23,422 nt of DNA from a virus. The stretch is from the IMG/VR virus record IMGVR_UViG_3300017991_004910, positions 1-23,422 of that record; one strand, written 5' to 3'. Numbering within the stretch: position 1 is the stretch's first letter; each line of letters opens with the position of its first letter. Below, piece after piece: positions 1 through 17,032 of this stretch. A program made the position numbers and the translations under genes. The notes under the pieces are model-generated. The model had not been told where the DNA came from, made no database searches, and worked only from the letters and a program-made list of their open reading frames with translations.

Positions 1-141
1 CTGCCATAACTTAATACCAAAACCATCAAGAACATTGAAGCACTTGCTCACTGTACTATCAAAATTGATTGTTATAGTACCATCTGTTAAAACACCATCA
101 ACATCTAGTACCAATAGACATATTTTACTAAAATCTATCAT
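1..141 (-). CDS. KdsC-like HAD phosphatase, N-terminal part (cut by window edge)
   Basis: The first 47 codons of a minus-strand gene are visible, starting at ATG 141; the rest lies beyond the left edge. The segment LVLDVDGVLTDG at residues 10-21 is the HAD motif I in the form typical of KdsC and the related phosphatase of CMP-sialate synthesis proteins, with the nucleophile and acid/base aspartates in DVD. It is followed by FNVLDGFGIKLW (residues 35-46), matching the family's usual F-N-x-x-D-G-x-G-I stretch. KdsC removes phosphate from Kdo-8-phosphate, and relatives act on nonulosonate 9-phosphates; the exact substrate cannot be read here. A GGAG lies 13 bases before the start, a long spacing. 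It follows a glycan gene cluster, which fits a sugar role. The family call is fairly firm, the substrate is inference. Confidence 0.8.
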   Translation of the reverse strand, partial: MIDFSKICLLVLDVDGVLTDGTITINFDSTVSKCFNVLDGFGIKLWQ

Positions 142-171
142 TGTGTATTTCAATCTCCAACAATAACACAA

Positions 172-197
172 GGGGTATGGCCAGATTGCCATACCCC
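172..197 (-). terminator. Strong hairpin, probable rho-independent terminator
   Basis: A perfect 10-bp inverted repeat (GGGGTATGGC and GCCATACCCC) encloses a 6-base loop. It lies between the stop of the metallophosphoesterase gene at 234 and the KdsC-like start at 141. On the minus strand the stem is followed by TTGTGTTATTGTT, a T-rich but interrupted tail. It is by far the most GC-rich stem seen between genes here. It probably ends or weakens transcription from upstream. With the imperfect T tract, an mRNA-stabilising or processing hairpin is also possible. Confidence 0.6.
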
Positions 198-233
198 ACC
201 TCCGGAAAGAAAGTAAGAGAAGCAAAATTATTG

Positions 234-956
234 CTAGTGTTTTCTATTCATCTTGAATCCTGTAAACTTTGAATCATGGTATTTCTCACCTTTTGAACAG
301 GGCATTATTTCATGATAAGGAATACCGTTCAGTACTATGCCAGCAGCCAAAACTGGACGAACCACTTCATCTTTTCCATAAATAAATTGAAAAGCCTTTT
401 CATCAATGCCACAACCCACATCCATTCCGAACATCCGAGTAAATTCATTCGTGCTCCATTTAATCCCAGCTCTGCCATGGTGATGACCTATTACCACGGA
501 CATATGAACCTTATTCATCAAATTCCAAGCTGGATGAATACTAGACTTAAGTTTTGTACCATGACGATAGGATACATTGTCAATAAAGAACCTATAGTCC
601 CATTCCCAATTAGGTGTTTCCCATAGTTCGCTGTAAGGTTTTATCATGAATTCAGGTATGTTTACCGTTTTTGCCAATCTAGCAGGACGCTCATCATGAT
701 TTCCAATACAAACTTTCGCCTTAGGAAAAGCTTCTGCCCATTGTCTCACATGCTTCTTCGCTAATTTGTATTCATCAATAGGCCCAGGACACGCAGGTTC
801 CTTCACCCAAAAACTAATAGCGTGCCAATCTACTACATCTCCTATGAAAATTACTTCATTACAATCCCATTCTTCATACAAATCCTTACAAAACTGTAAG
901 TAACCTTTTCTTGCTGCGGGTAAATGTAAATCACCAATTACAAGAACTCTTGACAT
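234..956 (-). CDS. Calcineurin-like metallophosphoesterase
   Basis: This 240-residue protein carries the full set of calcineurin-like phosphoesterase motifs: GDLH (residues 8-11), GDVVD (39-43), GNHDE (85-89), a histidine-glycine at 132-133 and GHHHG (157-161). These would bind two metal ions and hydrolyse a phosphomonoester or phosphodiester. The substrate cannot be deduced; family members act on nucleic acids, cyclic nucleotides, UDP-sugar derivatives or phosphoproteins. No signal peptide or membrane segment is seen, so it is likely cytosolic. The start at 956 has an AGGAGG six bases upstream, one of the best ribosome-binding sites in the window. It lies at the end of the glycan gene run and before a strong hairpin. 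A role in nucleotide-sugar or lipid-sugar phosphate cleavage would fit the context but is inference. Confidence 0.88.
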   Translation of the reverse strand: MSRVLVIGDLHLPAARKGYLQFCKDLYEEWDCNEVIFIGDVVDWHAISFWVKEPACPGPIDEYKLAKKHVRQWAEAFPKAKVCIGNHDERPARLAKTVNIPEFMIKPYSELWETPNWEWDYRFFIDNVSYRHGTKLKSSIHPAWNLMNKVHMSVVIGHHHGRAGIKWSTNEFTRMFGMDVGCGIDEKAFQFIYGKDEVVRPVLAAGIVLNGIPYHEIMPCSKGEKYHDSKFTGFKMNRKH

Positions 957-991
957 TGTTTACCTCCTAACCTATTATCATCAACTTTCTC

Positions 992-1654
992 TTACTTTCT
1001 CTTATGATGAAATCTTCCATTCCGCACACAACCAGCTTTTCGTATCACTCGAACTGAGTTTGCTTGAGGTTTCTTAGAAGCATTTCTCTCCACTCTTGAA
1101 GCTTGAAAATGCTTAATGACAGGATATTTCACACTAGACATGTAATCAAATATTGTACAGTATTCCTCTGGAAGAACATAGAAATCTTTCTCTCTAAGAA
1201 CACTAGCTAAAGCTCTCTGATCCCATAACCTAGAATCTTTCTTACATTCCTCTATCCATTCATTTATAATTATACTTGTCTTCTGATTATTTTTCAAAAA
1301 TATTGTTCCAGAAAGCAATTCCGGAGGGTGATTTCTACGGCGATATTTTGAATGATCTAGAATATGTACTCCTACAGAAAGATTGGGCATTCTATCTAGT
1401 TGATCAAAAAGAGCAGGATACCTATAGAAAACAGCATCCACATCTACATAAACTATAGAGTGAGGATGGTATTTCTCTAACATTTGTTTGAGAAATGTGG
1501 GTTTGAATTGCATATTCTTGTACCAATCACCCAAATTATCAATAGGAGTTATCTCATATGGCAATTTAAACTCTTTCAAGGATTCTATAAGATTTCTAGC
1601 ATGATTCTCATACTGAGTTGCTTTCGTATAAAATGCAGCAACTAACCACATCAT
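992..1654 (-). CDS. Putative GT-A fold glycosyltransferase (nucleotide-diphospho-sugar transferase type)
   Basis: The 220-residue protein resembles the nucleotide-diphospho-sugar transferase group (GT77-like). YVDVDAVFYRYP (residues 69-80) holds a DXD motif (D71, D73) of the sort that binds metal and nucleotide sugar. LLSGTIFLKNN (113-123) and WDQRAL (144-149) match the S/N-G-T and D-Q positions usual in the family. The C-terminus is strongly basic and ends RNGRFHHKRK. Two ATG codons are adjacent (1654 and 1651); a GGAG lies 4 bases before the first and 7 before the second, so translation may start at 1651. It follows the FkbM-like gene by 16 bases. It probably adds one sugar to the glycan made by this cluster; donor and acceptor are unknown. 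Confidence 0.75.
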   Translation of the reverse strand: MMWLVAAFYTKATQYENHARNLIESLKEFKLPYEITPIDNLGDWYKNMQFKPTFLKQMLEKYHPHSIVYVDVDAVFYRYPALFDQLDRMPNLSVGVHILDHSKYRRRNHPPELLSGTIFLKNNQKTSIIINEWIEECKKDSRLWDQRALASVLREKDFYVLPEEYCTIFDYMSSVKYPVIKHFQASRVERNASKKPQANSVRVIRKAGCVRNGRFHHKRK

Positions 1655-1670
1655 CTATCTCCAAAACCAT

Positions 1671-2294
1671 TCATATGTGCCAATGTTCAAAAATATATTC
1701 ATATCTATACAATAAAGTATGAGTTTTTGAAAGTGCTTCTTGAATCTTCTTCTTCCTATTTGAATAATCAGGCCCTATTCTATGAAATTGAATTAGTAGT
1801 TGTTTGAATCTCTCTATCAACCCAGTTGATATCATAAACTCCAATAACTCATACTCACCACCCTCAATGTTTATCTCTGCTAAATCCACTGATTTTACAT
1901 TTAAATCCTCAAGAATTTCTTTCATAGACCTAATAGTAATCCTTTGTTTCTTGTCGTGTAGCCGAAAAATACTTGAAGAATCTCCTAATAGTGCTATGTC
2001 CTCAGAACGAGTAGATCCTCCTACTCCACAATTAAACAACCTAACTTTAGAAGAATAAGAGGATAAACGATTTCTTGCTATCCTAAAATAATCCCAGATA
2101 GGTTCAAATCCATAAAGCGTGGGGCCATATCTAGAGCAGATTTGTTCTGCCCATAATCCTTTATACAATCCTATATCAAATACACAGCTATTCTCATCAA
2201 TCCCTTGGAAAGAATACATCTTCTCAGAACCATTGTCATCTAACCAGATTTGATGATTTTTTGCCCGCTCGGATGAATCCTTCTTTTCACCCAT
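1671..2294 (-). CDS. FkbM-family SAM-dependent methyltransferase
   Basis: A 207-residue class I methyltransferase of the FkbM type. VFDIGLYKGLWAEQ (residues 38-51) is the SAM-binding glycine loop, YGFEP (61-65) carries the acidic residue that follows strand 2, and VDLAEINIEGGEYELLE (136-152) matches the characteristic I-D-x-x-K-I-D-x-E-G-x-E signature of FkbM proteins, with the usual lysine-containing position altered. FkbM enzymes usually O-methylate sugars or other hydroxyls in polysaccharides and natural products. The length is normal for the family. It sits between sugar-modifying genes, so methylation of a sugar in the glycan is likely. A weak purine-rich AGAGATGAGAG precedes the ATG. 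Confidence 0.82.
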   Translation of the reverse strand: MGEKKDSSERAKNHQIWLDDNGSEKMYSFQGIDENSCVFDIGLYKGLWAEQICSRYGPTLYGFEPIWDYFRIARNRLSSYSSKVRLFNCGVGGSTRSEDIALLGDSSSIFRLHDKKQRITIRSMKEILEDLNVKSVDLAEINIEGGEYELLEFMISTGLIERFKQLLIQFHRIGPDYSNRKKKIQEALSKTHTLLYRYEYIFEHWHI

Positions 2295-2377
2295 ACTCTC
2301 ATCTCTTTCTTTCGTTCAAATATTCAATACTGCCATAAGTTTCTTACCAGGAAACCTCCAACAACCTGCTCTTGGTT

Positions 2378-3115
2378 TCATTTTTGAACATCCAAAAATT
2401 GTTTGATATATTCTTTACTAGTCTTCACAGGATAAAATTTCTGTAATGTTTGCACATCAATCTGATAAGTTTCAATCTTTGAATCAACTCTTACCTCAGG
2501 TGTCACATTAAGTAATGAGGCTATCTCTGCTATTGAAATAGATTCACTTGCTCCAACATTTATCCATTCTGCCCTCCTAGCATCTACACCACCTACATCT
2601 ATCTTCCAATTATCAATTATACAATCAATGATATTGGCCACCTCTTCAGTAGTAATGAAATTATAGATTGATTCAAGTTGAGTATACAAAGGTCGATTAT
2701 TCAGTAAATCATATATCACATTCTTAGATAAACCAGGGCCAATCAAACCACCCAATCTAAGGATATAGAAATTCTTCTTGACCAACTCCAATACTTTTCT
2801 TTCCATGGCCCGTTTCTGCACCCCATACTCAGTGTCCTCTCTTTCAGCGTCTATGGAAGAAATATGAATAACACCTTTCATTTTCATGTGGCACAACTTA
2901 GCATAGATATTATTCTCAATTTCTTGGGTAAGACCCCAATTCTCACTTACAAGGCGTTTACTAGAATTCCCAGCACAATTTACAACTAAATCAAAAACAT
3001 CATTCTCGGACACAGAAGTCTTAGAACCAACCTTAGTTATATTATGCTTATCCCCCAATTTCTGACAAACGGTTCGACCTACGAAACCATTGAATCCTAG
3101 CAAACAGATATTCAT
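2378..3115 (-). CDS. NAD(P)-dependent sugar epimerase/dehydratase-like SDR, short form
   Basis: A 245-residue extended-SDR-like protein. GFNGFVG (residues 7-13) is the N-terminal dinucleotide-binding glycine motif and Y97-x3-K101, preceded by SSID (86-89), fits the catalytic Ser/Tyr/Lys set. NCAGNSS (46-52) corresponds to the strand 4 N-A-G element. It is shorter than typical NDP-sugar epimerases (about 310-340 residues) because the C-terminal substrate region is trimmed, so it could be a reductase or dehydratase on an activated sugar. A GGAG lies 9 bases before the ATG. It follows the radical SAM gene by 21 bases. The fold is well supported, the reaction is not determinable. Confidence 0.78.
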   Translation of the reverse strand: MNICLLGFNGFVGRTVCQKLGDKHNITKVGSKTSVSENDVFDLVVNCAGNSSKRLVSENWGLTQEIENNIYAKLCHMKMKGVIHISSIDAEREDTEYGVQKRAMERKVLELVKKNFYILRLGGLIGPGLSKNVIYDLLNNRPLYTQLESIYNFITTEEVANIIDCIIDNWKIDVGGVDARRAEWINVGASESISIAEIASLLNVTPEVRVDSKIETYQIDVQTLQKFYPVKTSKEYIKQFLDVQK

Positions 3116-3136
3116 TTAAGATAAACTCCAATTTCC

Positions 3137-4231
3137 TCACGGAAAATATCTACACATCTCATCTTTCATGAAAACTTGTTCGACCATCCGATTATATGGC
3201 CCAAAAGTGCATCTAGGGCATTTGGTTACATCAATATCCATCAACATCTTCTTATGTCTATCCGTATTCCAATGTTTCAAAATCTCATGAGGATCAGGAT
3301 AATGACTACATAAAATCAAATCCTTCCTCCCACGCATATCAAAACATAAATGACAATTCCCATCAGCCCCAAAAGTGGCTAACAAAGCAGCAGCCCAACA
3401 TTTTGAAAATCCTATCTTTCTTGTAAAATTAGGATTAAACTTGTGCCTTACGCCAAAAACTCGAAAGTTCTCATCCTCTAGATCCATAGCACGAGCTATC
3501 TGATCATCCACTTCATCAAGCAAATCAGCAAAATACGGAGCTTCTTGATTTCTCGTTTTAGTAAGATTATCCCACCCTACCGGCCGAAGATGAAAATCCT
3601 TAACTCCTATCTTCTTAGCAATAATAGCAGCGGCTAATATCTCTTTAGCATTCATTGGATGTAAAAGATATTTATAGCACACATCACACCCAGTCTGCAA
3701 CTCCTTAACTCTCTTACAAACCTTCTCAATATTTTCAATAACTCTTGTAAACATATTCCTATTCTTGATGCCTTTAGCTCTCATGTACGTCTCTTCGGTA
3801 CCAGCATCCATTGATACCCCCATCCATCTACAAGATTCAGCTATCTTTTCAGCAGATTCATCAGTAATTAAAGAACCATTTGTAATAAGTCCAGGTTGGA
3901 CATTATTCTCTTTCAACCAAACAAGAAAATCCGGAGTTGAGGGATTCATTAAGGGTTCTCCTCCTCCAGCAACACAATTAGAGTGGGCTCCCCACTCGGC
4001 AAAAAAATCTGCTAATCGTTTCAAATGATCCCTAGGAATATCACTCTTCTTTCCCTTCATGTAATCAAAAGCATTACACCAAGGACAGTTGAAATTACAC
4101 CTATTTGATGGATCTGTATCTACTGTAACCGGGGGAAGAAAATCTTGTTTAGCAAAGCCTTCAAAATTCTCTCTCCACATTAGGGCTTTCATAGAATTAA
4201 AAGGATTAAATGGGTTATTCCACTCTCTCAT
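3137..4231 (-). CDS. Radical SAM enzyme with SPASM-like C-terminal cysteine domain
   Basis: A 364-residue protein with the radical SAM cluster motif CNFNCPWC (C45, C49, C52) that holds the [4Fe-4S] cluster cleaving S-adenosylmethionine, and the GGGEP motif at 89-93. A second cysteine group (C278, C293, C296, C308, C338, C341, C360) looks like a SPASM domain binding one or two auxiliary clusters. Such enzymes do hydrogen-atom-abstraction chemistry such as peptide crosslinking, epimerisation, dehydrogenation or sugar and alcohol oxidation. No peptide substrate with a recognisable leader is adjacent. Its place among glycosyltransferases suggests a sugar or glycosyl carrier substrate, which is inference. 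The ATG has a GGAG 8 bases upstream, and it overlaps the upstream gene by 4 bases (ATGA), implying translational coupling. Confidence 0.87.
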   Translation of the reverse strand: MREWNNPFNPFNSMKALMWRENFEGFAKQDFLPPVTVDTDPSNRCNFNCPWCNAFDYMKGKKSDIPRDHLKRLADFFAEWGAHSNCVAGGGEPLMNPSTPDFLVWLKENNVQPGLITNGSLITDESAEKIAESCRWMGVSMDAGTEETYMRAKGIKNRNMFTRVIENIEKVCKRVKELQTGCDVCYKYLLHPMNAKEILAAAIIAKKIGVKDFHLRPVGWDNLTKTRNQEAPYFADLLDEVDDQIARAMDLEDENFRVFGVRHKFNPNFTRKIGFSKCWAAALLATFGADGNCHLCFDMRGRKDLILCSHYPDPHEILKHWNTDRHKKMLMDIDVTKCPRCTFGPYNRMVEQVFMKDEMCRYFP

Positions 4232-5061
4232 TTGACAAGCTCCAACTCAACTTCTTGATGACAACCATTACTAACAAAACCAACTAATTTATTCACATTC
4301 ATTCTATATCCTGAATCAAATGCTTCTGTCAGAGCATTTACAGAAAATCTCCTATCTCCCCAAACTCGAATCCGCCAATTCTCTGGAAGGGTGCTGACTT
4401 CATTCATTGGATTGCTAAAAACTACAGATTGATTATAACATAGAAGATAAGGAAAAGTATCTATAAATCTTCCTTTACTTTTATTCATAACATCCTCAAC
4501 ATGAGGCATATCAACACTGATATTTTTCGTCCAAATGGGTGTAATATCTTTTGTACGATATATAGAACTAGAAACCTCCAATGGATAAGCAAAATCAAAC
4601 TGTTCTCCATTCCATTGATACTTAACCATTCTATCATTTATTCGCGAAAACTTAGGTATTCTTTGATTACTATCATGACCATAACAATAAGTGGTATTTG
4701 AACCTAATCGTAATGAAAATCCAAGAACATCCTTATTATTCTGCAAAGCAGCCTCTATTTCCAACAGTGAGAAAGAACCTGTAAACATATTGTCATCACA
4801 TTGCAAGAAGAAATATTCATATCCTGCTGTCATCTGAATAATCTGTTCAACTACTCTAGTCTCTTCAATGAAAACTACCTTCTTGAATATTTCTTTTAGA
4901 ACTTGATATTGTCGATGATAAGATTCACTAGTTGTCCTGTAAAGAACAATAACATCAACATTCCCTGGATCTTCACAATTTAGAAAGAAAGAATCCAAGG
5001 CAGCTCGTAACTGTAAAGCTCTATCTTTACTGAAAATTATAGACACTAGACTGGAAATCAT
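4228..5061 (-). CDS. Putative GT-A-like glycosyltransferase
   Basis: Start placed at ATG 5061 (277 residues, beginning MISSLVSIIFSKDRALQLR). A longer reading from TTG 5091 would overlap the upstream gene and has no ribosome-binding site, whereas GAGAGG lies 12 bases before ATG 5061. The N-terminus (SIIFSKDRALQL followed by a helix and then VDVIVLYR) is typical of a GT-A nucleotide-binding fold, and FFLQCDDNMF (about residues 84-93) sits where the metal-binding DXD motif should be, here as DDN. I recognise the general pattern rather than a named family. It is likely cytosolic and follows the CgeB-like gene by 16 bases. It may transfer a sugar in the same glycan pathway. Moderate confidence in the class, low in any specific reaction. 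Confidence 0.6.
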   Translation of the reverse strand: MISSLVSIIFSKDRALQLRAALDSFFLNCEDPGNVDVIVLYRTTSESYHRQYQVLKEIFKKVVFIEETRVVEQIIQMTAGYEYFFLQCDDNMFTGSFSLLEIEAALQNNKDVLGFSLRLGSNTTYCYGHDSNQRIPKFSRINDRMVKYQWNGEQFDFAYPLEVSSSIYRTKDITPIWTKNISVDMPHVEDVMNKSKGRFIDTFPYLLCYNQSVVFSNPMNEVSTLPENWRIRVWGDRRFSVNALTEAFDSGYRMNVNKLVGFVSNGCHQEVELELVK

Positions 5062-5077
5062 TTGCAATTTTTTCCTC

Positions 5078-6028
5078 TCACAACAAATCAACGATGATAT
5101 CTACTAATCTATCAACTTGAATATTTGCACTAAAGTTTTCAAGAACATATCTTCTACCAGCCTCTGCTATCTCTTCCCATTTAGGATCATCAAGTGTGTC
5201 AAAATATTCTTGAAATACTTCTTTGTAGTTTTCATTATTAATGAAAACAGCTGTTTCTCTATCCGTGAATCCCAATCTCTCATAATTGTTTATCTCACTT
5301 GCCTCCATGAATAGTAAAGTTCCGGCTGCGGGTATTTCCACATATTTGGAAACTGTATATTTAGTAGCCGCAGCAATAGAGGCTCGATAGGATTTTAGCA
5401 ACTTAGGATAGTTATCATTTACAGATTTTTCCCCTCTACCAAAATACTCAACAAATGATAGCTCTCTACAAGCTCGTCTTAACATGTAAAAGGCCCGCCA
5501 TTGAATAGTTTTGGGCATATCCCCTCCACAATCACCAGTCAAAAGTATTCTATCAGAAATTCTCTTGCTAAAGTCGTCATTCTCAAGTTGATATGCTTCC
5601 TGATCAATGAGACCAAAAATGATTTGATGATATTCTATGCCCTTAGGTCCATTCTTATCATACCACTCTGGAGCGTGTTCCCAGACAGCAGTCTTTATAC
5701 CATACTGATTACATTTAGCTACCCATGTATCAGATATAAGATGACAATCCGGGGATATAGCTAGTTTTGGTATCTCTACATCCTCAAGATGGAGTAAGTC
5801 AGATCCTTCAAGTTGGCCATGAGGATATGTTACAATCAACATAGCATCAAATCCCTCGAGAAATTTACAATCAAGAATTCTATCATACCCAAAAAAGGAT
5901 ACATCTACCCTACTATTCTGTGGCAGATCCTTCATAACAAATCTATACACATTGTTATTATGATAATTCCCAGAAAGAAACAAATTAGTATTTCTATACA
6001 ACACAGCTATTTTAAGTTTCTTATCCAT
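5078..6028 (-). CDS. GT-B glycosyltransferase, CgeB/glycosyl-transferases-group-1-like
   Basis: A 316-residue protein whose C-terminal third (about residues 220-316) matches the pattern of the group-1-like glycosyltransferase domain seen in CgeB proteins: a Ser/Lys-rich strand, then KYVEIPAAGTLLFMEAS, LGFTDRETAVFINN and a final helical tail ending in IVDLL. The N-terminal half (KIAVLYRNTN, a YPHG segment, and an AVWEHAP segment) would be the acceptor-side Rossmann domain. In this family the P-A-x-G-x-x-L element helps bind the donor nucleotide. Sporulation polysaccharide and phage glycan clusters carry similar enzymes. It overlaps the upstream GT2-GT4 gene by 8 bases, so both are probably made together. 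Donor sugar unknown. Confidence 0.72.
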   Translation of the reverse strand: MDKKLKIAVLYRNTNLFLSGNYHNNNVYRFVMKDLPQNSRVDVSFFGYDRILDCKFLEGFDAMLIVTYPHGQLEGSDLLHLEDVEIPKLAISPDCHLISDTWVAKCNQYGIKTAVWEHAPEWYDKNGPKGIEYHQIIFGLIDQEAYQLENDDFSKRISDRILLTGDCGGDMPKTIQWRAFYMLRRACRELSFVEYFGRGEKSVNDNYPKLLKSYRASIAAATKYTVSKYVEIPAAGTLLFMEASEINNYERLGFTDRETAVFINNENYKEVFQEYFDTLDDPKWEEIAEAGRRYVLENFSANIQVDRLVDIIVDLL

Positions 6029-7721
6029 TCTCTCTTATCACCTTTTGAAACAAATTATCAAACTTCCCAATCACCGATGCCCAACCCCAGTTATGTATAA
6101 TTTCTTCCCGCAGATTTCTACCAAATCCCCCTCGCAATTCTACATCCTCTTCTAGCAGCTTAAGATGTTTAGATAAATCAGTTGGATTTCTATCCACCAA
6201 AAATCCATTCTCTCCATGTTTTATTATTTCATTAGCAACCCCAACTCTTGTGGATACAACAGGAATCCCCATTGCACCTGCTTCTAGAATAGGCAAACAA
6301 AGACCTTCACTTTCAGATAGACATGCATATACATCTAACTTATTATAGAAACCAGGCATTTCCTTCATAGTAAGATGTGTTCTATCAACCTTTTGAAGAG
6401 CAGATATGAAAATAGCTCCAATCATCTTACAAGCCTGATCAATTAACCCAACCCCCTTAAATCCTCGAGACGATCCAGCATATCCAACTACAAGTTTCGA
6501 ATGATTAGGTCGTTTATTTGCATACTTCTTGTAATTAAATATATTCAAATCTACACCATCTGGGATAACATTCAAATTATCAACAAGTCCGTCAAGTTTC
6601 TTGTATTGATTATGGTTCACAAGAGTGAAATAAGAACCCCTACTTTTTAATTTTTCATTACAAAAATCTATAAGTTTTGTTCTATCATCAGGAAGATAGT
6701 AATCAGCTCTGATTCCAAGAATGGTTTTCTTCACAGGCAATCCAAAAGTTAAGGATTTTCCTGTGTAAGCCCCAAGTAAGTACACCACATCAAACTTCTT
6801 TGAGTCAGTATGGGCAAGATCATCAGTCGTTACAATCGTGAAATCATACTTACATGACAGTCGCATCTTCAACTGCAAAGCTATCTGATGAAATGTCCAT
6901 CCTAGAATATCCACAATCAATAATACCTTTGGTTTATGTTGATCTTCCATCATGGATCTTTTATCAATCCCTTCTATCAATTCTGCTTTAGTCATTGGAG
7001 GATAAGATTGTCTCCAATACACCTCCGCTCCACATCTAGCTTGTAAACTTCTGTTAACATTTCCATCACACAAAGGATTGCCTCTATTATAGATATATAG
7101 AATTTCATCAATATATTTTACATGCTTATGAGTGGCTATCTCAACCAATGGTCTCATTATAGCCACATCATATCCGGCAGGGAAATACTCTCCTGTCTCG
7201 GAAAATCTCAGATCTTCATCCTTAAGATTTTTCCATAAGAAATACTTGTAGGTTCTTAGATGCCTCCAAAAATATGTACCATGTCTAGGATCATGACCCG
7301 GAGGAGTAGGCCTAGCTACCTTATCCACTACATCCCCGGGCACACGCTTAAATGTTCCATAAGTCAACCAAACCTCTGGATCTTCATAAGTTCTCGCTAC
7401 TATTGATAAAACATCCGGAGTCGCCAACCAATCATCCCCATCCACTAATACTATTACATCCTCATCCTTACAATCAGCTTTCTGAATACCCTTAACAATA
7501 TTAGCTAAAGCCAACACTCTTTTAGTATTCTGCACAAAGACGAATCGATTATCCCCCCTAATCATCTTATCTATCTTCTGAGTGGTATCATCTGTTGAAA
7601 CATCATCTATAACAATAGCTTGCCAATTATCATATGCTTGAGATTTGATAGAATCAAGACATTTTTCTATGTACTCACTACAATTATATGCTGGGATGAT
7701 TACTTTCATATGTGAAGTCAT
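6021..7721 (-). CDS. Two-domain glycosyltransferase: GT2 (GT-A) fused to GT4 (GT-B)
   Basis: A 566-residue protein with two glycosyltransferase domains. The N-terminal GT2 domain (about residues 1-230) begins MKVIIPAYNCSEYIEKCLDS after a short leader and has DGDDW at 94-98, the metal/nucleotide-sugar site. The C-terminal GT4-like domain (about 262-566) has GYAGSSRGFKG near 413-423 and the E-x7-E motif (E472, E480) in SESEGLCLPILEAGAMG, which binds the nucleotide of the donor. It could add two sugars in sequence. I place the start at ATG 7721, not TTG 7724, because AGGAAGG lies 6 bases upstream and the TGATG overlap with the preceding stop suits coupling. No membrane segments are seen. Linkages and sugars are unknown. 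Confidence 0.86.
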   Translation of the reverse strand: MTSHMKVIIPAYNCSEYIEKCLDSIKSQAYDNWQAIVIDDVSTDDTTQKIDKMIRGDNRFVFVQNTKRVLALANIVKGIQKADCKDEDVIVLVDGDDWLATPDVLSIVARTYEDPEVWLTYGTFKRVPGDVVDKVARPTPPGHDPRHGTYFWRHLRTYKYFLWKNLKDEDLRFSETGEYFPAGYDVAIMRPLVEIATHKHVKYIDEILYIYNRGNPLCDGNVNRSLQARCGAEVYWRQSYPPMTKAELIEGIDKRSMMEDQHKPKVLLIVDILGWTFHQIALQLKMRLSCKYDFTIVTTDDLAHTDSKKFDVVYLLGAYTGKSLTFGLPVKKTILGIRADYYLPDDRTKLIDFCNEKLKSRGSYFTLVNHNQYKKLDGLVDNLNVIPDGVDLNIFNYKKYANKRPNHSKLVVGYAGSSRGFKGVGLIDQACKMIGAIFISALQKVDRTHLTMKEMPGFYNKLDVYACLSESEGLCLPILEAGAMGIPVVSTRVGVANEIIKHGENGFLVDRNPTDLSKHLKLLEEDVELRGGFGRNLREEIIHNWGWASVIGKFDNLFQKVIRENG

Positions 7722-8680
7722 CAATTGCCTTCCTGCAGCTTTCTTCTATACTCTTCTATTCTTGGAAGATACCATTCTACTGTCTTAGTAACACCTTCTG
7801 CTAAAGTAACCTTTGGATCATATTTCAAAACTGCTCTCGCCTTTGAAATATCTGCTATGAATCTACATACTTCTCCAGTACGATTTGGCTCACAACACAA
7901 CTTACTATTGGAATTAGTCAATTCTTTAACTAACTGAGCAACATCCTTAATTGAATGCCCCTTCTGAGTTGCAATATTATAAACCTCATTCTTTGAAATT
8001 TCAAAATGTTCCAAAGCTTTCACTACTCCATCCACTGTATCCTCAACATAGGTGAAATCAAGAATCTTGCTTTCTCCATAAATATGGATATTCTCACCTT
8101 GCAGAGCTTTTAAAATAAATAGAGGCACAACACGATCACTATAGTCAAACTTTCCATATACATTTGAAAATCTTACAACTATAAACTCAATACCATAACA
8201 TTGCTGATATGAATGTATTAAAGCTTCCCCAGCAACTTTTGTAGCCGTGTAAGGACTTTCACAATCCTTAACAAAAGCTTCATCCTCCGAATGAAGAATG
8301 CGACCGGAATTCCCATAAACTTCTCTAGAACTAGAAAAAAGAACTTTCTTGATGTTATTCTTTCTAGCAAACTCTAGAACATTGTACAGCATCATAAAGT
8401 TATCTTTAGCTAAATCAGGATCTTTTACCAGATTATAAACTCTAGCATTGGCAGCAAAGTGGACGATTACATCAATATCTAAAGGCAATTTCTCAAAACC
8501 GCTAGAATCCCTAAGATCTACACGAATGGTTCGTTGATGAACTTCATCATTCCATTGATTTTGATGCTTGATATCTACTCCTACTAAAACAGCATTTCTC
8601 TCCAATAATGTTTCACACAAACAATTACCAATGGTCCCCGAACTTCCAGTCACCAGAACTTTTAAATTATCTAGTTTCAT
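7721..8680 (-). CDS. NDP-sugar epimerase/dehydratase (extended SDR, GalE/RmlB-like)
   Basis: A 319-residue full-length extended SDR. GSSGTIG (residues 12-18) binds NAD(P), VDLRD (54-58) is the adenine-side element, HFAANARV (74-81) the strand 4 motif, SSSREVYG (116-123) holds the catalytic serine region and Y144-x3-K148 the catalytic pair. RFSNVYG and a later DFTYVEDTVDGV stretch are typical of GalE, dTDP-glucose 4,6-dehydratase and UDP-glucuronate decarboxylase relatives. It therefore probably makes an activated sugar for the nearby glycosyltransferases. The exact reaction cannot be told from motifs alone. AAGGA lies just before the ATG. It overlaps the upstream methyltransferase fusion by 14 bases and the downstream gene by one base. 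Confidence 0.88.
   Translation of the reverse strand: MKLDNLKVLVTGSSGTIGNCLCETLLERNAVLVGVDIKHQNQWNDEVHQRTIRVDLRDSSGFEKLPLDIDVIVHFAANARVYNLVKDPDLAKDNFMMLYNVLEFARKNNIKKVLFSSSREVYGNSGRILHSEDEAFVKDCESPYTATKVAGEALIHSYQQCYGIEFIVVRFSNVYGKFDYSDRVVPLFILKALQGENIHIYGESKILDFTYVEDTVDGVVKALEHFEISKNEVYNIATQKGHSIKDVAQLVKELTNSNSKLCCEPNRTGEVCRFIADISKARAVLKYDPKVTLAEGVTKTVEWYLPRIEEYRRKLQEGN
7728..7734 (-). promoter_or_regulatory. Ribosome-binding site deciding the GT2-GT4 start
   Basis: AGGAAGG on the minus strand, six bases before ATG 7721. The nearby in-frame TTG at 7724 would be only three bases away, so the site favours ATG. Confidence 0.7.
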
Positions 8681-9635
8681 AACTATCCTTCTCTATCCAA
8701 TAAACCTTTCTTGTTCCTCGAACTTTATGAGCATATCTTGCTAAGATTCTTCCACCCACTATTGTATCTATCTCCTCTTCCGTCATACTCTTATCAGAAG
8801 GAAAATGAGGAGGGACTATCAATTCTACAAAAAGATACTTTTTCGCTCTTAATTTGTATTCATCAATTTTATTTCTCAAATTACAATAGTTTGGATCAAT
8901 TTGATGATGCACACTTAGATACAAGATAATATCGAATTCACCTCCAGGATCCTCTACAACGAAATTAACATCCTCGTGCATAACCCTATCCCGTATTATT
9001 TTGGCAGTTTTCACTCCAGCAAGTCCTTTATCAAAACCCACTACTCTAGCACCGTGTTTGCTGGCTTGGAATGAATGGTAACCATAATGACACCCTATAT
9101 CCAATACTGAACAACCTGACCAATCTACAATATTCATGGTGTCCCAGAGAAATTTACTTTGTGCCCTTTTAGTGGGTGAAAAATCAAAAGTCTGCCACCA
9201 ATATATATCTTTCGCCCATTCCCTTATCTGGTTCTCATTCCAGTATTCAGCCAGTTCTATCTCCAACTCACCTTCACGAAAATCTTCAGGAATAGGTTCC
9301 TTAGTAATAATCTCCAAAAGACCTACACCTGAAGTGTGGTCATGACTTCTTTTAACCCAACCAAAATAATCCCTTCCCCCTTTTGATATTCTTGTAAACC
9401 AAAACCAATCAGTGCCATCAATTTTAGAGGGCCTAATCTTCTTAAAATAAGAAGCCTTCGACTTATCAATCAACCTAACATTAAATGTTCCAAACATTTT
9501 GCAACCAAAATTTCTAAAGAAGCTATCAATAAGCCCATCTGTCTTACCAACTTCGTGGGCGTGCCCACGACCTGTTGTGTATCTGCAAGTTGTTTTCACT
9601 CTATCTATCCCCTGTGTTTCCTTTATGTCTTCCAT
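8667..9635 (-). CDS. Riboflavin-kinase-like (CTP-dependent, DUF120) domain fused to class I methyltransferase
   Basis: A 322-residue two-domain protein. The N-terminal 130 residues resemble archaeal CTP-dependent riboflavin kinase: a glycine-rich GRGHAHEV start (22-29), a helix, then FGTFNVRL (48-55) equivalent to the family's G-T-L-N motif whose Thr and Asn bind the metal, FGWVK (91-95), and LLEIITKEPI plus EGELEIEL (106-128) matching the C-terminal E-I-I-A-P and G-D-x-x-x-I-x-I elements. The C-terminal part (about 160-322) is a class I SAM methyltransferase, with VLDIGCHYGYHS at 177-188 and VVGFDKG after it. The domain match is from memory of the family, without a search. The substrate is unknown; a CTP- or CMP-linked molecule is an attractive guess. 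The ribosome-binding site is weak (AAAGG three bases from ATG). It overlaps the upstream gene by 35 bases. Confidence 0.68.
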   Translation of the reverse strand: MEDIKETQGIDRVKTTCRYTTGRGHAHEVGKTDGLIDSFFRNFGCKMFGTFNVRLIDKSKASYFKKIRPSKIDGTDWFWFTRISKGGRDYFGWVKRSHDHTSGVGLLEIITKEPIPEDFREGELEIELAEYWNENQIREWAKDIYWWQTFDFSPTKRAQSKFLWDTMNIVDWSGCSVLDIGCHYGYHSFQASKHGARVVGFDKGLAGVKTAKIIRDRVMHEDVNFVVEDPGGEFDIILYLSVHHQIDPNYCNLRNKIDEYKLRAKKYLFVELIVPPHFPSDKSMTEEEIDTIVGGRILARYAHKVRGTRKVYWIEKDSYETR

Positions 9636-10200
9636 ATACCTTTACATGACCAGTATTCCCAGAAAATCCCCAAAGATTTGAAAAAAGAGCCAACTTATCT
9701 ATCCACCAACCAGGAGAACGAACACTAAGATGAAGAACCTCATCTATCTTCTTCCCCATATTGTCAGGCTGACAAGATATTGTACAATACCAAAACTTTG
9801 ATACCCGATTTATTTCTTGCAATGCCACCAACACTTTACTTGGTGGAATATGTTCAAGAACATCACAGCATAACAAAGCGTCAAACTGAAGAGATTTATA
9901 AGGAAGTTGCCAAACCGAAGCTATAGTTAATCTCTTCTTATACTCCGGAAATTTTAATACGTCTACCAAATCCACACCGAATACTTGATATCCAGCCATT
10001 GCTAACTTATGTAAACCAAAACCTTCTCCACATCCTAATACGAGAATAGACTTAACCGGTCTTTTATCTATCCAAACCAAGAATTTAGAAATTTCTTCAC
10101 ATTCTCCAGACCAAAAAGTATAATCAGGTATTCGCCATATCCTTGCATACTTGTCTGTCTCTCTTGCAAGCAAGGAAGCATCTGAAATTTCATCTTTCAT
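9601..10200 (-). CDS. Class I SAM-dependent methyltransferase
   Basis: A 199-residue protein of the Methyltransf_11/UbiE-like type. ILVLGCGEGFG (residues 52-62) is the SAM-binding loop, VFGVDLVD (73-80) holds the acidic residue that binds the ribose, and FDALLCCDVLEHIPP (106-120) is the post-motif II signature. The target cannot be read; sugars or small metabolites are likely given the neighbours. Its start codon shares one base with the stop of the preceding DUF115-like gene (TAATG), so it is probably translated by re-initiation. Its 3' end overlaps the riboflavin-kinase-like fusion gene by 35 bases, suggesting the two methyltransferases belong to one functional unit. Confidence 0.85.
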   Translation of the reverse strand: MKDEISDASLLARETDKYARIWRIPDYTFWSGECEEISKFLVWIDKRPVKSILVLGCGEGFGLHKLAMAGYQVFGVDLVDVLKFPEYKKRLTIASVWQLPYKSLQFDALLCCDVLEHIPPSKVLVALQEINRVSKFWYCTISCQPDNMGKKIDEVLHLSVRSPGWWIDKLALFSNLWGFSGNTGHVKVYGRHKGNTGDR

Positions 10201-10838
10201 TACAATACTTCTCCTACACTCTTATAAGATATGACATCATTAAGTTTACTTATAGATGAACAAGAAATCACCTGAATTCCTGAATCTAGAAGTCCTCGTA
10301 ATCCTATTCTAAAATAATTTTCATATGTACAAAGTTTTTCAGAGAACTTCTGCAAAGATTCCCCATATCCAGAATGGAAGTGAGTTTCATCAGTAATAGT
10401 TAGATCTACACCAAGAAGATAAATCCTCTTGTAACCTAGAATTACTGCCAATTGGAGAGCACAGAATCCAGAATTCAATCCTGTCCTGAAATCATCAAAT
10501 GAGAAGCCAATCCCATCTGCTCGATAACTTTTCACAACCATATTAAAATCATTCAAATGATAAACCATGTTGTATCTTTCATCTACAATTTGGCCGTTCT
10601 TCTCCTTAAGAAAAGGATGGCTAAAATCGGCTACAAATATTTTAGGTGTTTTAATTTGACTAAAACACCTAGTCCCTATCTTTCTCGAAAAAGTATAATC
10701 TACTGTAATGAAATAGGAAGGAGATGGGACATCAAGAATTGATTTATTCGTGACGATTGTATTTTTTTGTGTAAGTTTGCAAAAATCAAAATTTTTGAGG
10801 CTTGGACCTCCTCCAAGAACGAAAACTTCACTCTTCAT
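10200..10838 (-). CDS. MptE/DUF115-like protein, copy 2
   Basis: A 212-residue protein of the DUF115 (6-hydroxymethylpterin diphosphokinase MptE-like) superfamily, which also holds the Maf proteins that glycosylate flagellins. GGGPSL (residues 9-14) is the glycine-rich nucleotide-binding loop. GLNSGFCALQLAVILGYKRI (120-139) followed by YLLGVDL is the family's N-S-G-x-x-A-L and L-L-G-x-D block, and THFHSGY (152-158) is a histidine motif shared with the gene upstream. The two copies share these three blocks but little else. It may transfer a phosphate-linked group or a CMP-type sugar. It lies 26 bases after its relative. The gene's stop overlaps the next start by one base. The family is well supported; which activity applies is open. 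Confidence 0.77.
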   Translation of the reverse strand: MKSEVFVLGGGPSLKNFDFCKLTQKNTIVTNKSILDVPSPSYFITVDYTFSRKIGTRCFSQIKTPKIFVADFSHPFLKEKNGQIVDERYNMVYHLNDFNMVVKSYRADGIGFSFDDFRTGLNSGFCALQLAVILGYKRIYLLGVDLTITDETHFHSGYGESLQKFSEKLCTYENYFRIGLRGLLDSGIQVISCSSISKLNDVISYKSVGEVL

Positions 10839-10864
10839 ACCCTTCTCTCTATTTTCTCTACACT

Positions 10865-11614
10865 CTATCCTTGATATTTTCTTAGAAAACTTTCTAAGGA
10901 ATCTTTCTCAAAACACTCTAATCTACTGCTAGAACTCAGATTCACCACCTTTATCCCTTCTTTAGCAATAGTGGGAGCAAAAACATTGAAATATATTTGA
11001 AACTTATCTAACTTGTTTTGCATGGAATCAAATCTTTGACCTTGATAACCACTATGCCAATGAGTTCTTTTAGTTTGGTCATCCACTTTCATATCATAAC
11101 CAAGAAGCCCAATCTTTGTAGCCCCTAAAGCAATAGCCAACATCAAGGCACCAAAACCACTATTATTTCCTCCAAAAATCCCCCTCTTCAAATCAAAACT
11201 TAGAACTTTCTCCTTTCTAAGATCTTCGACCACATATACATCAGAATCAAGTTTGAAATTTCTTCGTTTCAAAAACACCTTAATTCCCTTGTAATCTAAC
11301 CATTGTCGATGTAATTCTATTCTTTCAGGTTCTGTAGGTGCATCATATGTTACTTTATCATAAAATCCCATATCCATTCCGAAATTGATTGTAGTAGGAA
11401 ATTTAGTGAAAGATTTGTTTATACCAATAGTCAATTCATTCCTTATACAATTAAAGTTGAAATTCCTAAGGCTTGGACCTCCACCAATAAGAAAACACCT
11501 CCTATCCTTCCACGATGTGGAGGATAAAATTTCAGATATAGGTTTAGCTAAACAAACTCTTTCTGAAGCTGCTATTATTCTAGTTGATTTATTATGTTTT
11601 ATTGTAACACCCAT
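10865..11614 (-). CDS. MptE/DUF115-like protein, copy 1
   Basis: A 249-residue relative of the next gene, with about 35 extra N-terminal residues. It carries IGGGPSL (residues 43-49), NNSGFGALMLAIALGATKI (150-168) followed by GLLGYDM, and THWHSGY (184-190). The DNA around the GGGPSL loop is identical over 14 bases in the two genes (10798-10811 and 11469-11482), including codon choice. It is the first gene after the tail fibres, 19 bases from the fibre stop. That position, and Maf proteins of this superfamily transferring nonulosonic acids to flagellin, suggest a protein glycosyltransferase acting on the fibres. This is inference; pterin or other pyrophosphokinase activity is also known in the superfamily. 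Confidence 0.77.
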   Translation of the reverse strand: MGVTIKHNKSTRIIAASERVCLAKPISEILSSTSWKDRRCFLIGGGPSLRNFNFNCIRNELTIGINKSFTKFPTTINFGMDMGFYDKVTYDAPTEPERIELHRQWLDYKGIKVFLKRRNFKLDSDVYVVEDLRKEKVLSFDLKRGIFGGNNSGFGALMLAIALGATKIGLLGYDMKVDDQTKRTHWHSGYQGQRFDSMQNKLDKFQIYFNVFAPTIAKEGIKVVNLSSSSRLECFEKDSLESFLRKYQG

Positions 11615-11633: not shown

Positions 11634-12737
11634 TTATTGTTTAACTAGATTTCCTGCACCAATAGGTAGCCATCTTATAGAACCAGAGAACGTACCACCA
11701 GATGTTGATACTTTACAATACTCTCCTGACTTAACAGGAAAACTAGCTGCTTCAGGACTATTTATAGCATCACTGCCTGCAACAGCTGTAGTTGGTGGAT
11801 TGCTACTATCAGTATATCCAAAAGTTCCTGCACCCGCAGCGGAAGCACTAAAAGACATGAACCCATCGCAATCTGCCTTATACACAGCATCTGCAACAAG
11901 GGCATTATTCAAACTATCTTTTGTTGTCCAACTTCCAAAAATATCCCCACTAGCAGACATTGGAGACGAAATGAAACTTCTAACATCTGTTATTCTATCT
12001 GCGGGTATGTTAGTATCACCATTAACCACCCTAACCTCCGCCAACACTAATTTTCCATTATAATCAGGGGCTGAAGGACTTGGAGTGGCTGTTCCCTGCT
12101 GTATGGCTATTGCTCCTGCATCAGTTATATATACCAAATCAATTCGTGAATTAGGAGAACTAGGAACAGCAAATAGACCAGTTTTCTGTTCGGAAATAAG
12201 TACATATCCACTACTTGTTTGTACTCTTCCAGCTCTAACACGAACCCTCATTTCCGTCTCACTAGTAGCTTCAACCCTTAAAACTATGTCTTGAACATTT
12301 AAGAATGTTCTACAACTATAATCAAATCCTGTCAGTGTTGCTCCAGAAAATTCACACTTACCTATTACTATATCATTATCTTGAGCAGCAGCTAAAGAAG
12401 CAATAGCATGAACTTCCACATAATTGGCTATCGTTTCAGCAAAAGCCCAGCGAAAAACTATGAATGGGGTTGCAGAAGAAATGCTTCCAGAATCCAATGT
12501 TTCAGAATCAAGAGTAGCATTAACACTAGATTTTGAGCTAATCTGTTCACTATTATCTCCTATTTCAAGAGCAAAAGGAGATAATGTAATCCTAGTATCA
12601 AGAACCTTTGTTAAGTAGCCACCATTGTAAATTCCACGAGGCCTTATACTAAGATGTCTTTTATTAAAATCTTCAGCAGTAGCTTCCTCATAATAATTAT
12701 ATGTAATGTCTTGATTTCCGTGATCTATTGCTCCCAC
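11634..12737 (-). CDS. Tail fibre/receptor-binding protein, copy 2
   Basis: A 367-residue fibre-like protein, low in cysteine and rich in serine, threonine, alanine and glycine. Residues 30-260 align with the fibre gene upstream through shared segments such as GIYNGGYL, PFIVFRWA, DIVIGKCEFSGA, RVRAGRVQT, NSRIDLVYI, YNGKLVLAEV and ITDVRSFIS. The last 100 residues (a Ser/Gly-rich stretch ending in IRWLPIGAGNLVK) are unrelated to the other copy and would form a different receptor-binding tip. The start is GTG 12737, with AGGAG 8 bases upstream, in the same arrangement as the other fibre gene. It would be assembled on the baseplate as part of an adhesin. No chaperone gene was recognised next to it. 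Confidence 0.72.
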   Translation of the reverse strand: MGAIDHGNQDITYNYYEEATAEDFNKRHLSIRPRGIYNGGYLTKVLDTRITLSPFALEIGDNSEQISSKSSVNATLDSETLDSGSISSATPFIVFRWAFAETIANYVEVHAIASLAAAQDNDIVIGKCEFSGATLTGFDYSCRTFLNVQDIVLRVEATSETEMRVRVRAGRVQTSSGYVLISEQKTGLFAVPSSPNSRIDLVYITDAGAIAIQQGTATPSPSAPDYNGKLVLAEVRVVNGDTNIPADRITDVRSFISSPMSASGDIFGSWTTKDSLNNALVADAVYKADCDGFMSFSASAAGAGTFGYTDSSNPPTTAVAGSDAINSPEAASFPVKSGEYCKVSTSGGTFSGSIRWLPIGAGNLVKQ

Positions 12738-12823: not shown

Positions 12824-14035
12824 TCAAGATAATTCTTGTACAACCAGAACTCTTGGATAAGTAACCCCTTGCTGATTAATGCCATTCGCTGGAGCATGCT
12901 CCCCGCCAGTATGCCACTGAATCTTATAAACATAAGTTCCTGCTGATATCTCATCAAGATATTGTAAAGTGAAAGGTTTCTCTACATGAGATCCTTCATA
13001 ATTCTTATTTCTGTAAAGAGCTTCAGATAGTTTAGTAGATCCCCTAACAAGTTTTACATACATATCTACTCTAGATGAATCCCCTATCATCTCACAAGTG
13101 AATGTCACGAAAACTTTTCCTCCCATAGTAGTTATTGCTATTGACATATCAGGCATATCTGTATAACTTAATGATTTTGTATTGACATTTGTACTCCCAA
13201 CTGCACTAAGAGCTTGTCCAATAGATTTAACTTGCAGTTTTCCATCACTATTCTCTTCTATTGTAACATCATCAGGAGAAACATTTGGTGATATGAAATT
13301 CCTAACATCCTTTATCATAGATGCTGTAATATTTGTATATCCCGCAGTTAAAGTAATCTCCGCCAACACTATCTTTCCTTTATAATCAGGAACCACAGGA
13401 TTCAAAGCAGCAACTCCGGTTTCTATTTCAACTGCCCCAGTACTTTTATTGATATATATCAAATCTATTCTACTATTGCTTGCAAGAGTATCAAACAAAT
13501 CACTCTTTTGATCAGATATATCAATTACTGCGCTATTAGTTTGAATTCTCCCCGCCCTAATTCTAACTCTACGCTCAGAAGTCTCAGTAGGTTCTACCTT
13601 CAAAAATAGATCTTGAGTACTTGGAGTGGTACGAGGATATGAACTATCCTGATAATTAAATCCATTAAGATTACCACCAACGAAAGTACACTTCCCTACA
13701 ACTAAATCATTAGCAGCAGGAGTAGCTACAGCTAACAATTCCATATAGTCGGTTACTGTACCAGTGTATGCCCAACGAAGAACTATGTAAGGAGTCCCCT
13801 CTGCCACGGTGAGATTCACGGTGCTGGCAGTCTCTATTCTTACCTGGTAAGTTCCGTCACTAATTTCACAAACTAGAGTTGATATTTGAGCAGTAGTATT
13901 ATCAACTACACTAAGATAGCCCCCGCTATAGATTCCAGTTTGTCGAATTCCTTGAAATCTCTTATTTACAATAGATGAATTCGCCGGTCTATAGAATAAA
14001 ATTGTAACAGTTTGATTCCCAATATTAGCAGGCAC
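12824..14035 (-). CDS. Tail fibre/receptor-binding protein, copy 1
   Basis: A 403-residue fibre-like protein homologous to the next gene over roughly residues 25-255 (GIYSGGYL, PYIVLRWA, DLVVGKCTFVGG, RVRIRAGRIQTNS, NSRIDLIYI, YKGKIVLAE, IKDVRNFIS). After residue 255 it differs: a short DDVTIE linker leads into a beta-rich tip of about 140 residues ending in YPRVLVVQELS. The linker resembles DDITIE in the gpI-like protein just upstream, suggesting a shared adhesin joint. The start is GTG 14035, seven bases after AGGAG. The gene follows the gpI-like gene by 10 bases, the usual place for a tail fibre in P2-type modules. Receptor unknown. Confidence 0.75.
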   Translation of the reverse strand: MPANIGNQTVTILFYRPANSSIVNKRFQGIRQTGIYSGGYLSVVDNTTAQISTLVCEISDGTYQVRIETASTVNLTVAEGTPYIVLRWAYTGTVTDYMELLAVATPAANDLVVGKCTFVGGNLNGFNYQDSSYPRTTPSTQDLFLKVEPTETSERRVRIRAGRIQTNSAVIDISDQKSDLFDTLASNSRIDLIYINKSTGAVEIETGVAALNPVVPDYKGKIVLAEITLTAGYTNITASMIKDVRNFISPNVSPDDVTIEENSDGKLQVKSIGQALSAVGSTNVNTKSLSYTDMPDMSIAITTMGGKVFVTFTCEMIGDSSRVDMYVKLVRGSTKLSEALYRNKNYEGSHVEKPFTLQYLDEISAGTYVYKIQWHTGGEHAPANGINQQGVTYPRVLVVQELS

Positions 14036-14042
14036 AATTCTT

Positions 14043-14047
14043 CTCCT
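14043..14047 (-). promoter_or_regulatory. Ribosome-binding site for GTG start of fibre copy 1
   Basis: AGGAG with a 7-base spacer AAGAATT before GTG 14035. It overlaps the TAG stop of the gpI-like gene, so the two genes are probably coupled. Confidence 0.65.
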
Positions 14048-17020: not shown

Positions 17021-17028
17021 AAACAGCA

Positions 17029-17032
17029 CCTC
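17029..17032 (-). promoter_or_regulatory. Ribosome-binding site deciding the large adhesin start
   Basis: GAGG on the minus strand, 8 bases before ATG 17020. It overlaps the alternative GTG at 17029, so initiation at the GTG is unlikely. Confidence 0.6.

Follow-up and report, generated by a model that had tools for sequence, protein, structure and literature searches.

A likely virion-glycosylation locus with a predicted Maf-like core behind the tail-fibre genes of an uncultured bacterial virus

Gene content of the fibre-linked island

The IMG/VR record IMGVR_UViG_3300017991_004910 is a linear fragment of 23,422 bases from an uncultured bacterial virus, and the whole of it, referred to here as the window, was analysed for an island of sugar-type genes that lies directly behind two tail-fibre genes and is read below as a likely virion-glycosylation locus. 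The main open reading frames (ORFs) of the window are all on the minus strand. From 23.4 kb downwards they comprise baseplate genes (gp53-, gp5-OB-, PAAR-, gp25- and gp6/J-like) and the gene of a gp80-like fibre protein, followed by an Ig-domain protein, a conserved tail protein, two related fibre genes and then 14 genes running to the window end. An earlier note on this DNA had described these 14 as a closely spaced, same-strand series behind two fibre genes, and this was borne out, all being encoded on the minus strand from 11614 down to 1 with gaps of at most about 90 nt or short overlaps. The accompanying description of all 14 as sugar-type genes stood for the first 12, termed here the glycan island; the last two, for a metallophosphoesterase and for a KdsC-like fragment, probably form no part of it. 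Signatures of glycosyltransferases (GTs), methyltransferases, epimerases or radical S-adenosylmethionine (SAM) enzymes were present in ten of the 12 island genes, and the other two were placed via relatives or by eye. The relatives used throughout are contig fragments whose ORFs were called mechanically, and were seeded separately by the J gene (16 in IMG/VR) and by a scan with the fibre N-domain. The fibre genes and the island comprise the following features.

14046..15275, minus strand: conserved tail protein in a gpI-like position, adjoining the fibres upstream; homologues of 43-61% identity at the corresponding position of J-seeded relatives, no Pfam or PHROG match
12824..14035, minus strand: fibre 2, conserved N-terminal ~250 aa and variable C-terminal part; weak PHROG tail/head structural matches
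11634..12737, minus strand: fibre 1, candidate receptor-binding protein (RBP); RBP-shoulder-like and tail-fibre-like N domains, variable C1q-like tip
10865..11614, minus strand: DUF115a, predicted Maf/GT42-fold GT at the left edge of the conserved frame; sub-threshold DUF115/MptE-like match and structure model
10200..10838, minus strand: DUF115b, second predicted GT42/Maf-fold GT; sub-threshold DUF115/MptE-like match, conserved second position
9601..10200, minus strand: SAM methyltransferase, island cargo; Methyltransf_11, E 6.6e-10
8667..9635, minus strand: SAM methyltransferase, cargo; Methyltransf_31, E 3.3e-5, below cut-off
7721..8680, minus strand: NAD-dependent nucleotide-sugar epimerase/4,6-dehydratase; PF01370, E 3.5e-50
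6021..7724, minus strand: two-domain GT2 and GT4 glycosyltransferase; PF00535, E 1.6e-22, and PF00534, E 3.5e-19
5078..6028, minus strand: GT-B-like glycosyltransferase; Glyco_trans_1_2, PF13524, E 4.7e-5, just below cut-off
4228..5091, minus strand: putative GT-A-like glycosyltransferase, likeness by eye only; homologue in the L035 island, no Pfam, PHROG or NCBIfam match
3137..4231, minus strand: radical SAM enzyme with a Cys-rich, SPASM-like C-terminus (by eye); PF04055, E 2.2e-19
2378..3115, minus strand: short-chain dehydrogenase/reductase or epimerase; PF01370, E 6.4e-7, homologue in the L035 island
1671..2294, minus strand: FkbM-family methyltransferase; TIGR01444, E 7.8e-11, above cut-off
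992..1654, minus strand: terminal GT at the right edge of the frame; PF03407, E 9.2e-7, invariant D71xD73 motif

The epimerase also matched the NCBIfam models TIGR01181 (E 2.4e-49) and LegB-type TIGR04180 (E 5.7e-38), both below cut-off, and the methyltransferase gene at 8667..9635 is common to L009/L020 and L018/L026, with 48% and 41% identity to relatives.

Conservation of fibre 2 is about 0.7 up to residue 250 and 0.15-0.38 thereafter; in fibre 1 the variable part is the tip. An AlphaFold model of fibre 1 (pLDDT 81.5, pTM 0.47) was matched in VIA to the RBP of phage 1358 (Z 9.7), the tail fibres of cyanophage A-1(L) (Z 9.3) and HFTV1 (Z 9.1), and C1q-like heads (about Z 6), so that the protein models as an RBP. 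As no VIA match covered the whole length of the model and the pTM was 0.47, the orientation of its domains is not trusted. The fibres had also been called Ser/Thr-rich, a description that had to be dropped: their content of 19-20% is not unusual, J, gp80 and the Ig protein having 16-17%, and the variable tips showed no enrichment over the conserved parts. The Ig-domain tail protein (15275-17029) has a C-terminal Ig domain and a weak discoidin-like match at its N-terminus; about 100 of its residues are common to most relatives, and its length differs.

Conserved edges and exchangeable middle among relatives

In all six J-seeded relatives with enough DNA, the order fibre, DUF115a, DUF115b was recovered (in full, fibre 2, then fibre 1, or one fibre and another gene, then DUF115a and DUF115b), and DUF115a lay directly 3' of fibre 1 in 11 of the 11 near relatives from the fibre N-domain scan. 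As this order recurs in both sets, the adjacency of fibre and DUF115 genes is not attributable to chance, and the co-occurrence of fibre and island for which related phage genomes were to be compared is present. Complete islands in the relatives have the frame fibre, DUF115a, DUF115b, sugar genes and, at the far end, the terminal PF03407 GT, which is 49-56% identical to that of the window in five relatives. A one-to-one pairing of the two DUF115 proteins with the two fibres was ruled out because L031, L044 and L046 carry both DUF115 genes and one recognisable fibre gene.

Between DUF115b and the terminal GT, the eight islands compared contain 5.5-12.3 kb of DNA and 7-16 genes. Few or no genes of this middle region are held in common by many pairs of relatives, and 37 of the 152 island proteins clustered were singletons. 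Comparison of L023 with L025 was the clearest case: identity was 74% for the fibre N-domain, 62% for DUF115a, 61% for the terminal GT and 81% for the next gene, while none of the 7 and 14 middle genes was common to both. As the frame is similar and the middle genes are not shared, the middle has therefore been swapped as a cassette. Furthermore, the distances of J, the fibre 2 N-domain and DUF115a are correlated (r 0.61-0.70, permutation p 0.0005), as would be expected if the frame were inherited together with the tail module. Conserved edges combined with a wholesale exchanged middle suggest that the virus adds sugars to its own fibres and that these sugars can change.

Not every gene of the island need act on sugars. 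It was considered that the radical SAM enzyme and the methyltransferases act directly on amino acids of the fibres, in which case some of the sugar genes would be unrelated cargo; the apparent SPASM-like Cys-rich end of the former would fit this, as would its best NCBIfam matches, which are below cut-off and include peptide maturases. However, radical SAM enzymes act on sugars too, and by Pfam such genes account for only 5 of 135 island proteins in the relatives. Being present in some islands only, the gene behaves like cargo, and direct modification of amino acids is judged very improbable.

The earlier note had reasoned that islands far from any structural gene would count against fibre glycosylation. 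In L036 and L040, the two relatives most suspected of this, the upstream DNA showed both islands to begin behind a fibre, with DUF115b one gene (L040) or four genes (L036) after it. Here DUF115a sits far from visible structural genes, and a fused DUF115a-PF03407 gene closes the island, which in L040 spans ~25 kb. Giant ~25-kb fibre-linked islands ended by such a fusion were noticed in L143-L144 (contig G016) and L145 (contig G020), where, by eye, arrays of similar-looking GT paralogues and paired dehydrogenase/transketolase-like genes of ~330 and ~350 aa are found.

Maf-like fold, gene fusions and donor sugars

A model of DUF115a built on eight sequences (pLDDT 86.7) was used to search for structural relatives. 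When 1000 Foldseek candidates were re-aligned by VIA, Magnetospirillum Maf (5MU5) came first (Z 16.4), with 197 residues aligned at a root-mean-square deviation of 3.9 over 5MU5 residues 257-513, the central domain of Maf; CstII (Z 11.4) and a methanogen HPPK (Z 11.3) followed. By its model, DUF115a has the fold of the Maf central, GT42-like domain. A profile of DUF115b matched CstII by sequence (E 1.1e-5) and Maf 5MU5 (E 0.01). Longer proteins with DUF115a matches were noted elsewhere, including one of 1093 aa (L054/L058:9926-13207) that carries two DUF115a domains in tandem, and others in L057 and L069.

About 14 distinct contigs encode DUF115a and PF03407 as one fused protein, DUF115a first, and these gene fusions link two enzymes whose genes in the window mark the two ends of the island. 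Three of these contigs, from two further phage lineages, have capsid genes ahead of the fusion: in L134 the fusion is directly behind the scaffold gene and then a Gp13-like major capsid gene (E 2.9e-76); in L045 it is directly behind a cement protein and then a weak Phage_capsid_4 match (E 5.8e-5, below cut-off); and in L047 a single cupin-like gene separates it from a Phage_capsid_4 protein (E 3.5e-7) upstream. In sister loci, L049 among them, the pair is unfused and lies between a phrog_24071 protein and genes for a head-tail adaptor and a minor head protein, and by its match the capsid candidate of L045 also belongs to phrog_24071.

A second, siphophage-like lineage (L045, L047, L049, L060, L061, L064, L066, L122, L123 and L129) was observed in which DUF115a, often fused to PF03407, together with cupin, GT2 and methyltransferase genes, lies within the head gene block and adjoins the phrog_24071/Phage_capsid_4-type protein. 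These genes are likely a capsid-glycosylation operon. Among cultured phages and other viruses, a DUF115 gene and a methyltransferase gene lie between head closure and tail terminator in PAJU2, a DUF115 gene lies within the structural gene block of virus S20, and another follows the tail genes of phage Bambus. Scans of viral contigs with the radical SAM protein or DUF115a as a single query yielded nothing usable, and alignments were required. Against 84,980 prokaryote species the DUF115a alignment gave one match, L080 (37% identity), on a 9,307-base contig of an Aminicenantes metagenome-assembled genome; as its gene neighbours look, by eye, like those of the L045/L049 phages, this contig is probably viral.

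The recurrence of the pair behind capsid genes raises the question of whether the main substrate in the window is another virion protein (the Ig-domain tail protein, the sheath or the capsid), with the fibres as mere neighbours. Capsid and tail-tube proteins are reported to be glycosylated in mycobacteriophages (Freeman 2023, as cited in PMC12363180), which would accord with such a substrate. In the lineage of the window, by contrast, the islands start at the fibre in the relatives examined, the giant islands of L036 and L040 included, and this alternative is considered unlikely.

The donor sugars were sought through genes of nonulosonate synthesis. NeuB is encoded in the islands of L029 and L046 (E 4e-71 and 3e-63), together with a CMP-sugar synthetase above the Pfam cut-off whose closest match is PseF (E 9e-34 and 4e-26, under the cut-off of PseF itself). 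The search for NeuB and a CMP-transferase thus succeeded in these two relatives and failed in the window and the other records; both genes were above cut-off in 2 of 14 records, all of them fragments. The KdsC-like enzyme previously offered as a sign of a Kdo or nonulosonate pathway gives no support for such a pathway in the window, the fragment lying beyond a terminator-like hairpin in a window that has neither NeuB nor a CMP-transferase. The right flank comprises three features.

234..956, minus strand: metallophosphoesterase, right-flanking gene; phrog_221, E 1.8e-45
172..197, minus strand: terminator-like hairpin closing the block; 10 pairs, 7 of them G-C
1..144, minus strand: KdsC-like HAD phosphatase, truncated at the window end and lying past the hairpin; TIGR01670, E 1.4e-10 over 40/154 positions, below cut-off

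The metallophosphoesterase is probably outside the glycan pathway; L026 carries a helix-turn-helix (HTH) metallophosphoesterase in the matching position, and this right-edge gene (L026:17614-19683, contig G006) is split by an intein (Intein_splicing E 1.1e-10, Hint_2). The hairpin at 197-172 was the best terminator-like hairpin in the 18 kb scanned, but as such sites were somewhat commoner than in shuffles (15 observed against 8.1 +/- 2.8), this single site is suggestive only. Promoter-like sites were little above shuffles (78 against 69 +/- 7) and were left out of the argument.

Substrate of the island enzymes and relation to known systems

The locus is considered likely, from its genes, to be a cytoplasmic, Maf-like glycosylation system acting on virion proteins, most probably the receptor-binding fibres. 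In the mechanism that we infer, which extends to the substrate and donor sugars, the sequence in which sugars are added, late expression and biological role, soluble enzymes would be made late, alongside the tail proteins, and would build nucleotide sugars. In the cytoplasm a multi-sugar, methylated glycan would be transferred onto virion protein soon after its synthesis, the two fibres encoded upstream being the likeliest target. The functional core would consist of two GTs: the Maf/GT42-fold DUF115a, helped by DUF115b, would attach the initial sugar to hydroxyl groups of the protein, and the PF03407 enzyme would extend or cap it. Genes between the edges would be exchangeable cargo setting the identity of the glycan, and the fibre scaffold and attaching enzymes would be kept in related phages while the sugars worn differ.

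An alternative is that the enzymes alter host lipopolysaccharide (LPS) or capsule during infection, blocking co-infection or re-adsorption. The gene types match those of surface polysaccharide clusters, and T4-like phages have GTs beside their fibres, for which modification of the O-chain is argued in PMC7029224. A hydropathy scan of 138 island proteins of relatives and of the island of the window, however, turned up no multi-pass membrane protein, and thus no GtrA-, Wzx- or Wzy-like component. Marginal hydropathy windows were seen in seven of the relatives' proteins, at most two in each and peaking at 1.86, and the one marginal call in the window was DUF115a itself (1.77), which fits a buried strand. 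Lack of a GtrA-like protein or Gtr flippase/transferase argues against O-antigen conversion of the Gtr type. As the DUF115a and PF03407 pair furthermore stands behind capsid genes in other lineages, remodelling of the host surface is regarded as quite unlikely.

Glycosylation of modified bases in the phage genome was also weighed, phage GTs being often DNA-acting (as cited in PMC12619734). No gene of the thymidylate-synthase/hydroxymethylase family (PF00303) was found in 18 contigs, all fragments, and the position of the island among structural genes, the predicted Maf/GT42 fold and the sugar-type methyltransferases (FkbM, TylF) all argue against hypermodification of DNA, which is held to be extremely unlikely.

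Several observations weigh against glycosylation of the fibres by a Maf-like system. Peripheral soluble GTs acting on the LPS core would equally have no membrane helices. Distances of the fibre 1 tip and DUF115a are only weakly correlated (r 0.21), and the fragments of two distant fibre homologues, L095 and L099 (34-43% identity), contain no DUF115 gene, so the fibre fold does not need DUF115. Most islands, that of the window included, have no CMP-sugar synthetase and yet keep DUF115a; the donor would therefore be a CMP-sugar made by the host, or DUF115a would take a donor of another kind. Maf itself is promiscuous, accepting CMP-Neu5Ac and CMP-Kdo (PMC11339370). Foldseek alone gave no match below 1e-3 for the DUF115a model, with Maf not among its best, and the PF01973 scores of DUF115a and DUF115b (27.9 and 20.3 bits) are under the gathering cut-off of 34.6. 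Maf proteins are laid out in three domains, N-terminal Rossmann-like, central and C-terminal helical (PMC11339370), of which DUF115a (249 aa) and DUF115b (212 aa) have neither the N- nor the C-terminal one, the model covering the central domain only. By cut-off, outer domains and substrate the system of the window is not a member of the Maf family; by its modelled fold DUF115a probably works alike. Fibre glycosylation of a Maf-like kind, the core claim of the earlier note, nevertheless stands as the best-supported reading, through the predicted fold of DUF115a, its invariant placement behind fibres in near relatives, NeuB and a CMP-sugar synthetase in two relatives, fusions behind capsid genes and the absence of multi-pass membrane proteins.

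As in Maf systems, a GT42-like fold adjoins genes for surface appendages, and genes of nonulosonate synthesis are found in two relatives' islands. Unlike in Maf systems, the neighbours of the DUF115 genes are phage baseplate and fibre genes rather than flagellin, the proteins are single-domain (~210-250 aa) and two per locus, they are paired with or fused to a PF03407 GT, and NeuB and the CMP-sugar synthetase are missing from most islands. Mycobacteriophages (Corndog, Che8 and Myrna) likewise have GT and methyltransferase genes inside the structural gene block, those of Corndog, for an O-methyltransferase and a GT, lying between portal and capsid protease according to PMC4351075. Such systems, however, comprise few genes and concern capsid or tail tube, whereas the window has an island of a dozen or more genes beside fibres; conserved edges around an exchanged middle are not described in the excerpts of these accounts, and tblastn of DUF115a at E 1e-5 returned no mycobacteriophage among its matches. 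In its hypervariable island of fibres and GTs inside the structural region, the locus resembles the host recognition cluster of pelagimyophages and cyanomyophages, in which cassettes with radical SAM genes differ between close relatives; in an excerpt of PMC7029224 the pelagimyophage cluster is read as modifying host LPS, and no conserved DUF115/PF03407 frame is mentioned there.

Bacterial O-antigen and capsule clusters have conserved flanking genes and an exchangeable middle of sugar genes. The islands share these conserved edges and this swapped middle and, unlike the bacterial clusters, contain no flippase- or polymerase-like membrane proteins. Virion glycosylation in phages and GT-rich islands beside fibres are already known, and no earlier report of tail-fibre glycosylation or of nonulosonate-bearing phage fibres was found in the open-access literature. 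Within that literature, what appears to be new is the core of a Maf-like and a PF03407 enzyme, the fusion of the two, their repeated occurrence behind genes for fibres or capsid, and the exchange of cassettes between fixed edges. This judgement is provisional because the search was largely without subscription papers.

It is tentatively proposed that the locus acts as a 'serotype' locus, in which a core of two GTs (Maf-fold DUF115a and PF03407, sometimes one polypeptide), found in several unrelated lineages, would glycosylate the fibre or the capsid, whichever is the main exposed protein of the virion, and wholesale exchange of the cassette between conserved edges would change the sugar; the glycan might serve attachment, mimicry or shielding and be selected for diversity. 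GT-rich islands beside fibres have hitherto been read as tools for the host surface, whereas a conserved Maf-like core locked to fibres, with fused counterparts close to capsid genes, suggests that the substrate is the virion. A general rule may thus be put to the test, namely that where DUF115a and PF03407 are present, glycans would be carried by the neighbouring virion protein. Should the glycan be determined by the swap of cassettes, phages would diversify their own surface in the way that bacteria diversify O-antigens, which would bear on adsorption, neutralisation and the evolution of phage-host specificity.

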